Positions 26,565-54,505 of a DNA stretch of 64,000 nucleotides are shown piece by piece. Source of the DNA: Chitinispirillaceae bacterium (GTDB lineage: Bacteria > Fibrobacterota > Chitinivibrionia > Chitinivibrionales > Chitinispirillaceae); NCBI GenBank assembly GCA_016929595.1, contig JAFGIN010000055.1, positions 1 to 64,000 on the forward strand. The letters are read 5' to 3'. Positions within the stretch are counted from its first letter, which is position 1. Each line of letters begins with the position of its first letter. The translations under genes were made by a program, and so were the position numbers. The notes beneath the pieces were generated by a model. That model saw only the letters and a list, made by a program, of their open reading frames with translations. It had not been told where the DNA came from and ran no database searches.

Positions 26565-26874
26565 GGAATTACTCTAAAAAATAATAAATTATGTTTATAA
26601 TCAGAATAAATATAGTAACTGCAGATGAACTACACACCCTGGAATACCAAAGTCCTGCGGGGCCAGCGACAATTTCGCAGGTGATTTTTTCATAGTGTCT
26701 GTTTTACCTTCAGAATAAACATTATTGTCAGCTTTAAGAAAATCCTGCAGTTCTTCAGGTACTTCCTGATATTATTTACACTTCAGTAGCCAACTTTATA
26801 TTCACATTCAAAGCTGTATGTTTTTTTGATGGTCGGTCAAATCTGAAAAGTATTACAAACAAAACAGTATGTAA

Positions 26875-27032
26875 TTCTACAACGTTAAATACCTAAATCG
26901 CATCAAAAAGGTCATTGAGCGGAGCGGTGCATTGAGCGAAGCCGAAAGGTCGAAATGACAAGCGTGATTTGCTTAAAACGCTTCGTCTCGACTCCGCTCG
27001 ACGACCGGAACAGTAATGTTAACGTTGTAGAA
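26875..27032. mobile_element. MITE-like element with perfect terminal inverted repeats
   Basis: A 158-bp non-coding element. TTCTACAACGTTAA (26875-26888) and TTAACGTTGTAGAA (27019-27032) are perfect 14-bp inverted repeats. The element is flanked on both sides by GTAA (26871-26874 and 27033-27036), a candidate 4-bp target duplication. The interior is self-complementary in part: GGTCATTGAGCGGAG (from 26910) pairs imperfectly with the GACTCCGCTCGACGACC stretch ending at 27006, and ATTGAGCG(G/A)AGC occurs twice, 18 bases apart. It carries no open frame, so it would need a transposase in trans. A 16-nt core is repeated at the 3' end of jetA (54473-54488). Sequence from 26565 to 26874 and 27037 to 27235 holds no recognised gene. 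Confidence 0.75.
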
Positions 27033-27252
27033 GTAATATCTACTTGTTATAAAATTATAGTATATTTTGTACTGTTGTCATCTGAAAAAAACTGAACGAA
27101 CCTGGGTTCACAAGGATAAGAGGATATGCTTCTTCAGGCAATCTCTGTGCTTTTTTGCATCAATATTTAAAATTACACAGAAAAAAATCAGCGGAACCAG
27201 GGCGGTTTGATAGTTATTACTTTACATGGCAAATGAAAGGAGGAGATCTGCA

Positions 27253-27288: not shown

Positions 27289-27351
27289 TGTAAACTTGTA
27301 AGAGGGCTTATATGTCATATTTACGATCATTTTTTGAAATGGAGTTTTATA

Positions 27352-28182
27352 ATGAAACAGAAAATTGTAATGATTAATTTTTTTTCTATTATTCTTTTGC
27401 TGACTTTGACAGTAAATGCAATACCGCCTTTTCTCTGGTATTCTACTTACAGTATTGAAAATTATGTAGGAAACGGATGTGCTTGCGATACAATAAAGTC
27501 TGGTGGAATGACGTGGATTTCATGCCCCTATCTTGAAATGTCGCACGATGAAGCTGAAGCATTTCACAACGCCCTGGTCAATCTTAGTATAGGTAACTGT
27601 AACCGCCGTTATTTCAGAAAGGATAATGACGTAACTGCTGCACTCTGGGCTGGAGACAATGCTGAAATAAATGGTGTTGATTTCTTTTTTTATAGTGGAC
27701 ACGGGTCCGGATTCGGGCCGCATCTTGGTTGTAATTCAACATATGAGATAACCTGCAGTGATATAAGATTTAAAGGAAGTGGTTACCTCAAATGGGTTCA
27801 GGGGTGTGCATGTCTGTGGTTTTGTCCACCACAATATGCGAATGGTATAGGTGAATTTTCCCGATGGTTCAGCAGTTTTCAAGGTGTGCACACAGTTCAG
27901 GGACATCGTGCCATTACTTATGAATCTGAGAATCCACAGGCTTTAATGAATGATTTCTGGAATGACTGGGTTAATGAGGGTAAATCTATAGATAATGCAT
28001 GGAAATCATCACAGATAGAATTTATCTATCAGGGTTCTGGCCTACCTGGTCTCATGCCTGCAACAATGGCTGCAAATGAAACCTATGCATATGAGACCTG
28101 GGCATCTGCCAGTGACGCTGCCGCTCCAGCCGGGGCCTTCTGGTTTTCCTGGAGACAAACCGGAAACCCTGAGTACGAGTAA
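27352..28182 (+). CDS. Secreted caspase-fold-like protein (DUF6345 type)
   Basis: A protein of 276 residues with a signal peptide (about residues 7-24, IVMINFFSIILLLTLTVNA). The body has a DFFFYSGHGSGFGPH stretch (candidate catalytic His of a caspase/C25-like dyad) and, about 35 residues on, WVQGCACLWFCP (candidate Cys). This H-then-C arrangement and the later SSFQGVHTVQGHR and IDNAWKSS motifs match the DUF6345 family, whose fold is caspase-like; activity is not established. It may be a peptidase that acts outside the cell. GGAG, eight bases before the ATG at 27352, supports the start over a TTG at 27334. It is followed after 43 bases by a second secreted protein and probably shares its transcript. 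Confidence 0.68.
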   Translation: MKQKIVMINFFSIILLLTLTVNAIPPFLWYSTYSIENYVGNGCACDTIKSGGMTWISCPYLEMSHDEAEAFHNALVNLSIGNCNRRYFRKDNDVTAALWAGDNAEINGVDFFFYSGHGSGFGPHLGCNSTYEITCSDIRFKGSGYLKWVQGCACLWFCPPQYANGIGEFSRWFSSFQGVHTVQGHRAITYESENPQALMNDFWNDWVNEGKSIDNAWKSSQIEFIYQGSGLPGLMPATMAANETYAYETWASASDAAAPAGAFWFSWRQTGNPEYE

Positions 28183-28225
28183 TAATGTTGTAGTACTAAA
28201 TCATATTTTACCAAAGGAGTATAAA

Positions 28226-50193: not shown

Positions 50194-50537
50194 AGTAGAT
50201 ACTGCCTTTCATTCCATTCGCACAGGTGTCGGATGGTTTGATTAAAGTTGAAAATGGGGATGATTTTTGCAACGCGACATGAGAAACATAACATACTCAC
50301 TATCTGATATAAAGTTTATAACCAGCACTATTAAATCAGAAACAGAGTACACAATAAAAATACTAAAAGTTATTCGTGAAGCAAGTGTTTTGAGATAATT
50401 CTGAAAAGAATAAAACAATAATTTTCTACAATTCATGTAAATCATACTGTTACAGAATTGCTATACATTCTGTAACAGTGAAAGAAGTTTTGGAATTGAG
50501 TGGTTAAATTAAAAAAACATGATGAACTGACTGCCAC
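50194..50537. other. Intergenic region with a perfect inverted repeat
   Basis: About 344 bases with no gene. ACTGTTACAGAAT (50446-50458) and ATTCTGTAACAGT (50467-50479) form a 13-bp perfect inverted repeat with an 8-base loop, about 60 bases after the diadenylate cyclase stop and 250 bases before the DUF1877 start. No T run follows. It may end the cyclase transcript or be an operator for the DUF1877 gene. Confidence 0.5.
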
Positions 50538-52933: not shown

Positions 52934-54481
52934 ATGCAACACTCTTTTCAGGAAAAGCAGACTCAGGGGCGTGCCCTGCTATCGGAAAATGCTGTTACTG
53001 CTTTTGAGGAGGGATTTTGTTCTCATCTTCTTTCCGGACGTAATACAAATCTTGGAAACCTTCTCGGGTCGGAACGGGCACTTTTTTACCTTCATATTGC
53101 CTACCGGATGCTTCTGTTCCGCCGTGAGCACGAACTGGAACCGCTTCATGAGGATCTCTACCGGGCGGTTCGTGATGCCCAGCAAACTGTAAATGGCGGG
53201 TCCTATCCACCCGAGCTGTATGGATCTGATATAAATAACCTTCACGAGTGGAAACTTATAACTATTCGCCTCGAAAAGGAGCGCATCAAAGGATATAAGG
53301 ATACAAGGCGGACAAAATACCGTTACGGTCTTACTGATGAAACGATCCGCTTTCTTGTCTGGCTTGAGGAGCGGCTTCAGGATGATATCGAGGAGAATGT
53401 CACTGATGCCCGGGATCTGCTGGAAGAAGTTGCCGGAACAATCAAAGAATTGCGACGGTTCCTTCACAGCCTGCAGAATCAGAATCGGGATCCTGACGGG
53501 AATGAGGCCCGGCGGATACTCTACCAGATTAACAAACTGGATCAATTATCGCATGATATCGGAGCGACACTCAGTGAATTCAATGCACGCCTGCTTGGCT
53601 TTTTAGTGTGTGACTATGATATTGGTAATTTACGTGAGTTACTTAATTCACTAAATCTGTATATTGAAAAATATCTGAGCAGAATAGGCATGGTACGCGA
53701 AACCCTTCTGCCTGAACTGAAAAAGATCAACAGTGCAAAAGCACGGGAAAAAATCCAGGTTGCAAAGAAAATCATGGATCAGGAGCGACTTTCTGCACCA
53801 CGGGAGTTCAGAGCCCGATCTGAAAGTGCTGACCCGATGGAAGTTCCATCAATTTTAATCCGCTTTTATAAAAATAATGGTGTTCTTGATGTGATTTGCC
53901 ACAGAATAAACGAATCTGCACTTCGGGTATGGCGCCGGATGTCGACGCATCTTAAAGAGCTTGAGAGAAAGAGCCACCGTATCGATGATCTTCGTGCACG
54001 TATGGCAGAGCTTGCCTCAAAACCTGATGATTATATTCCTGTTGACTGGATGGTACAGCTTCTTTCCTGGGGACATATGCGTGGAGATATGCATCAATGG
54101 GATGAACATGAGCTTGCAGATCCGCCCCGCCCCAGAAAGGGTTCATGGAAACAGCACCGCAGTCCGGTCCTGTATCTTGAAGCTGCAAAACCCGGTGAAG
54201 GGGTGGCGTTAAGCATGGAGCAGACCAGGCTTAATTTACTAAAAGAATGGATTCAGTCGCGTATTGCAAGTGGTGGCAACTGGAAATTTTCTGATGGACC
54301 TTATGCTGATCTGTCTGATTTTCAAAAAGTAATTGAACTTGCCCGTGCCGGTATGCTGGGAAATGGTAAAAAACTCAAGTCAATCGACTATTCCCTTACC
54401 CCGCTTGAAAACCAGACCGTATTGCAGACTGAAAAGCTGTCAATTCGTTGCAATGATATGGAATTGCGTACCGGTCATTGA
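52934..54481 (+). CDS. jetA: JetA, MukF-like kleisin of a Wadjet system
   Basis: A protein of 515 residues. It starts with helical winged-helix-like sequence (GSERALFYLHIAYRMLLFRREHELEPLHEDL), has YRYGLTDETIRFLVWLEERL, then a long helical central region, and a C-terminal winged-helix-like part. Kleisin JetA bridges the two JetC heads and binds JetB. Assignment rests mainly on size, helical character and position before jetB-jetC-jetD. The ATG at 52934 has GGAG seven bases upstream, preferred over TTG at 52931. The last codons (Thr-Gly-His) and the stop are within a repeat-derived hairpin. Base composition appears richer in G and C than most flanking genes, suggesting transfer. Subtype is not certain. 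Confidence 0.82.
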   Translation: MQHSFQEKQTQGRALLSENAVTAFEEGFCSHLLSGRNTNLGNLLGSERALFYLHIAYRMLLFRREHELEPLHEDLYRAVRDAQQTVNGGSYPPELYGSDINNLHEWKLITIRLEKERIKGYKDTRRTKYRYGLTDETIRFLVWLEERLQDDIEENVTDARDLLEEVAGTIKELRRFLHSLQNQNRDPDGNEARRILYQINKLDQLSHDIGATLSEFNARLLGFLVCDYDIGNLRELLNSLNLYIEKYLSRIGMVRETLLPELKKINSAKAREKIQVAKKIMDQERLSAPREFRARSESADPMEVPSILIRFYKNNGVLDVICHRINESALRVWRRMSTHLKELERKSHRIDDLRARMAELASKPDDYIPVDWMVQLLSWGHMRGDMHQWDEHELADPPRPRKGSWKQHRSPVLYLEAAKPGEGVALSMEQTRLNLLKEWIQSRIASGGNWKFSDGPYADLSDFQKVIELARAGMLGNGKKLKSIDYSLTPLENQTVLQTEKLSIRCNDMELRTGH

Positions 54482-54505
54482 GCGGAGCCGAAACGACCGG
54501 TTTTT
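54471..54505 (+). repeat. Hairpin at the jetA stop sharing a 16-nt core with the 26.9-kb MITE-like element
   Basis: CCGGTC (54471-54476) and GACCGG (54495-54500) are inverted repeats, extended by partial pairing inward, and are followed by TTTTT. The 16 bases 54473-54488 (GGTCATTGAGCGGAGC) are identical to 26910-26925. The jetA stop codon TGA (54479-54481) is inside the repeat. The structure looks like an intrinsic terminator placed 40 bases before jetB. Confidence 0.7.

Follow-up and report, generated by a model that had tools for sequence, protein, structure and literature searches.

What is the short segment with inverted ends that lies between two divergent genes of a Chitinispirillaceae bacterium, and which enzyme could have put it there? 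The window considered here, a stretch of 64,000 nucleotides, carries the segment at positions 26875..27032 (plus strand), in the gap between recD (TIGR01447; 24747-26564, minus strand) and a DUF6345 gene (27334-28182, plus strand). Its left terminal inverted repeat, TTCTACAACGTTAA (26875..26888, plus strand), has the IS701 pattern TTCTAC-NNN-GTTA; the right one (27019..27032, minus strand) is its exact reverse complement. The tetranucleotide GTAA stands on both sides, at 26871..26874 and at 27033..27036. No ORF of 80 aa or more overlaps the segment, which folds far better than its dinucleotide shuffles (z of -4.65 as RNA and -4.58 as DNA). An earlier note on this DNA had described a 158-bp, non-coding, partly self-complementary element with perfect 14-bp ends and GTAA flanks, encoding no transposase and adjoining the DUF6345 cluster; all of this is borne out, and the coordinates are exact.

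The interior holds a palindrome, GTCATT...AATGAC, and a second one inverted relative to it, GTCGTC...GACGAC, around a conserved TCGRCTNCGCTC. In the window copy, the former (palindrome B; 26911..26959, minus strand) is split by an insert of ~25 bp that is missing from the copies on contigs C20 and C120, and the latter (palindrome A; 26982..27005, plus strand) reads TTCGTC-TCGACTCCGCTC-GACGAC. Judged by their sequence, these palindromes are REP-like elements.

Taken by themselves, the ends carry limited weight. A perfect 14-bp inverted pair with a spacing of 60-300 bp was found in 4 of 60 first-order Markov windows (~7%); the view that such ends rarely occur by chance therefore holds only in a moderate form, and the decisive evidence is the recurrence of the element elsewhere. 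A further match resembling the terminal repeat, at 28183 in the window, is probably due to chance. The bacterium's own assembly, a draft of 6.6 Mb in 224 contigs that is 95% complete, yielded 49 matches to the 158-bp element, corresponding to ~25 related copies; these numbers come from a draft in which two halves at contig ends may be one copy. Six copies, those in the window and on contigs C12, C18, C71, C183 and C123, are 158-160 bp long; identity is 95-99% among them and 96-99% to their own consensus, which most half copies at contig ends match exactly. No fewer than 12 contigs break off within a copy, as would a short-read assembly at a repeat it cannot span. The whole-genome search that had been proposed for the ends and the unit thus gave a clear result, and the near-identity of the six copies upholds the suggestion of recent activity in this genome.

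Apart from these, there is a second subfamily with the ends TTCTACATTGTTA, mostly 91-93 bp in length. Since longer copies with the same ends exist on contigs C17 and C32, the short form is read as an internal deletion; the 92-bp copies carry hybrid palindromes, and their sequence suggests that the deletion fused both inner palindromes into one. Intermediate forms are found on C20 (134 bp), C94 (122 bp), C103 (121 bp) and C167 (200 bp). Conservation across subfamilies with differing cores is highest in the terminal repeats. With one mismatch allowed, the end pattern occurs 50 times in the genome, and its unpaired occurrences are mostly 91-93-bp relatives or truncated ends. Contig C12 also harbours, at ~50200-50322 (loci L048 and L076), a 119-bp segment with the ends TTCTACAACGATG and CTAACGTTGTAGAA, an unrelated interior and flanks that do not match, which is possibly a different or decayed member of the family.

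If the copies were inserted by a transposase, their flanks should record it. The 4 bases on either side of the 18 complete copies were compared, with right flanks re-dealt in the shuffles: 10 of the 18 have identical 4-bp flanks where 2.6 are expected, and none of 200,000 shuffles reached 10. The ten matching flanks are GTAA, CTAT, CTAA, TTAG (twice) and TTAA (five times), mostly conforming to YTAR, with Y at position 1, R at position 4 and TA in the centre; GTAA of the window copy departs from this consensus at its first base. Several of the 92-bp copies have flanks that do not match. This identity across complete copies makes the GTAA pair, noted earlier as a candidate, a true 4-bp target-site duplication. 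The agreement also exceeds chance when only the outer bases of the flanks are considered. An IS630/mariner MITE with a TA-only duplication was rejected on this ground, the outer bases matching far above shuffles, and on the absence of DDE_3. An empty site was sought by joining the flanks; in 24 genomes of the family, all from other genera, no match crossed the junction.

The copies lie at unrelated sites, with different sequence flanking each. This bears on the reading of the segment as a conserved regulatory or structural element, such as a hairpin, terminator or small RNA, that does not move at all. Its strong fold is what such an element would show, but the window has no Rfam match, a terminator between divergent genes would serve neither of them, the flanks are unrelated from copy to copy, nearly all relatives are devoid of the segment, and a conserved position beside the same gene in other genera was not seen; this reading is thus extremely improbable. 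Bacterial MITEs are defined as multicopy elements of 70-300 bp with terminal inverted repeats and no coding capacity (PMC3733652). The element shares its size class, inverted ends, non-coding nature and multiple copies with RUP, NEMIS, ERIC and Nezha, and the general features of MITEs with those of Porphyromonas gingivalis (PMC4596501). Being short, non-coding and bounded by inverted ends, with ~25 copies at unrelated sites and 4-bp duplications, it is indeed a MITE, as had been proposed.

Which transposase family the MITE derives from can be approached through its target and its ends. RUP and ERIC use TA targets of the IS630 kind; the 158-bp MITE differs from them in its 4-bp YTAR-like targets and its IS701 ends. 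A YTAR-like target points to IS5 or IS701 as candidate parents: insertion of IS5 with duplication of YTAR has been reported (PMC10359306), and so have IS701 duplications of 4 or 5 bp (PMC8024623). The complete end pattern of the MITE is YTAR followed by TTCTAC-NNN-GTTA. Autonomous IS701 elements on plasmids, found by tblastn with an IS701 fragment from a relative of another genus in the same family (G008), have recognisable inverted ends in 17 of 18 cases, nearly all directly after YTAR; examples are CTAG before CACTACTTTGGCA, TTAG before CACTACAGTTGCA, CTAG before TACTACTGTGTCA and TTAA before TACTACTTTGTCA. In the insertion sequence on plasmid pTs417 of Candidatus Thiodictyon syntrophicum, CTAG-TTCTACTTTGTTA and TTAG-TTCTACTTTGTTA enclose a transposase that is assigned to IS701 by NF033540 (E 3.4e-88) and PF13546. 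The same arrangement, YTAR on both sides and ends of the form YNNNAC-NNN-..., is shared by the MITE, this element, the insertion sequence on Allochromatium tepidum pAt1, and ISBj6, ISAzs6, ISRm31 and IS1452. These IS701 elements are ~1.4-1.55 kb long and encode a DDE_5 transposase, whereas the MITE has 158 bp and encodes nothing.

A matrix built from plasmid IS701 ends only, without any MITE sequence, assigns ~15-20 bits to MITE ends of the TTCTACATTGTTA type, against ~10 for the highest-scoring of the window's 127,968 positions, among which the ends of the window copy rank 20-58. Their NNN is AAC, which is missing among the IS701 ends examined. Closer to the host, G008 holds a decayed IS701 transposase (locus L142, 1333-2340 on contig C483) with several stops and no recognisable right end. 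Its left end, TTCTACTGTGTTAGACTA, is preserved ~100 bp upstream of the remnant; TTCTACTGTGTTAGACTAAAAAGCAT, ~100 bp upstream of the transposase start, has a score that random sequence reaches at most ~0.7 times per Mb, and the similarity to the MITE end extends into the subterminal AAAA-AGCAT. In another relative (G001), an intact IS701 ORF has neither clear inverted repeats around it nor a MITE-type end.

Much the same evidence bears on a MITE of some other family with 4-bp duplications, the main candidate being the IS5 group, which likewise has a YTAR target. The ends fit those of IS701 instead, both by direct comparison and by the matrix, and the host genome lacks the transposases DDE_Tnp_1 and DDE_Tnp_1_2, on which grounds an IS4/IS5 origin was rejected; a parent of this sort is accordingly improbable. 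The ends of IS5 itself are not known to fit those of the MITE either.

Taken together, the segment is very probably a non-autonomous MITE of the IS701 family, presumably moved by an IS701 transposase acting in trans. Such an enzyme would recognise the TTCTAC-NNN-GTTA ends, excise or copy the element and insert it at a YTAR-like target with TA at its centre; repair of the 4-bp stagger would leave the duplication, here GTAA. The interior would be passive cargo, with its two inverted REP-like palindromes allowing the whole element to fold back.

This relatively simple picture is complicated by the helper. The host's draft, 95% complete, yielded no match to an IS701 transposase (DDE_5, PF13546), nor to DDE_3 (IS630), DDE_Tnp_1 (IS4/IS5) or DDE_Tnp_1_2 transposases; the search covered these four DDE families and Y1. 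No pair of ends 0.8-3 kb apart was seen around a transposase there. An autonomous relative in the same genome is usual for the parent of a MITE, although not required; here, it is by ends and target that the element is matched to a helper. The suggestion that a transposase with matching ends be sought thus led to none in this assembly, but to IS701 elements elsewhere with similar ends. The helper may have been lost after the burst, may lie in the unassembled part of the genome, being itself a repeated IS, or may have been present only transiently.

A search for the MITE ends in other genomes gave nearly as little. The family hardly occurs in the 167 further genomes of the phylum that were searched. 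Its one clear relative, in G016, is degraded; it shares the inner palindromes and has the ends TAG-TTCTACTTTGTTA, the TTCTACTTTGTTA of the pTs417 IS701 letter for letter. Single matches to the end pattern occur in G001 and G091; across the entire search, the reversed pattern used as a control produced five such matches. When ~85,000 species genomes were scanned for the exact ends, three hits came back, about the number expected by chance and all unrelated on inspection; a scan of viral contigs returned no match. Of copies in related genomes, the search thus brought to light the G016 relative and almost nothing else among the 167.

There remains the origin of the cargo. Single and tandem occurrences of the REP-like motif are found in the host genome and in many relatives. 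In 48 distinct copies, all six stem pairs change on both sides, with 51 cells against 15 in shuffles; the search pattern limited the set of copies, but put no link between the two sides of the stem. The host genome has 45 matches to the motif, roughly 25 of them inside MITE copies as inverted pairs. One solo palindrome, ACCGGTCATTGAGCGGAGCCGAAACGACCGGT (54474-54497, minus strand), sits at the junction of jetA and jetB in a Wadjet-like operon, where it overlaps the stop codon at the jetA 3' end; terminal repeats are missing, TTTTTG follows it, and its appearance is that of a hairpin or terminator within the operon. The earlier note had seen the core of the element reappear in the Wadjet operon; a related REP-like palindrome is indeed present there, but as a solo copy and not as a second MITE.

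The motif also forms tandem arrays with units of ~37-40 bp (GGTCGTCGAGCGAAGTCGAGACG..., GGTCACCGAGCGGAGCCGAGGTGAGC...), on contigs C180 (30062-30237), C93 (19-192), C150 (15384-15491) and C113 (33593-33800); the array loci are L093, L094, L135 and L138, and several arrays are situated at contig ends. Among the relatives, the palindrome with its TCGRCTNCGCTC and covarying 6-bp stems occurs in G019, G022, G023, G003 and G055. It is abundant in some members of the family and phylum and absent from close neighbours, and no RAYT partner was found.

Pairs of inverted palindromes with solo copies elsewhere are also typical of REP/REPIN systems with GTAG- or CGTC-tagged palindromes (PMC3733652, PMC3116915). 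The segment could be mainly a REP/REPIN-type element that owes its spread to a RAYT (Y1) tyrosine transposase, with the terminal repeats incidental. The inverted core, the solo copies with covarying stems here and in relatives, and four Y1_Tnp genes in the genome would suit this reading; yet neither REP nor terminal repeat lies near any of the four Y1_Tnp loci, and RAYT mobilisation was rejected on that account. Paired terminal repeats with 4-bp duplications are not what movement by a RAYT would predict, and these repeats, best conserved among subfamilies whose cores differ, also speak against it. Here, in contrast to REP/REPIN, the palindromes sit within an element that has terminal repeats and target duplications, and no RAYT adjoins; a REPIN spread in this way is very improbable. 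The assignment to an IS701-family MITE may nonetheless be combined with the REP-like nature of its core: it is conceivable, if somewhat short of probable, that the MITE served as a vehicle amplifying a REP-like palindrome for which this genome shows no transposase of its own. If this were true, a DDE-transposase MITE, and not a RAYT, would have multiplied a REP pair.

A full-text search of open-access papers found no described IS701-derived MITE. The element adds a family of MITEs whose parent, IS701, is assigned, in the poorly studied phylum Fibrobacterota; a TIGR02147 protein and the composition of the phylum among the genomes compared are in keeping with this placement. Its copies account for part of the fragmentation of the draft assembly. 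A recently multiplied element in a genome with no recognisable helper makes the question of the helper a testable one, and the element may illustrate a possible route by which a DDE transposase spreads REP-like palindromes.
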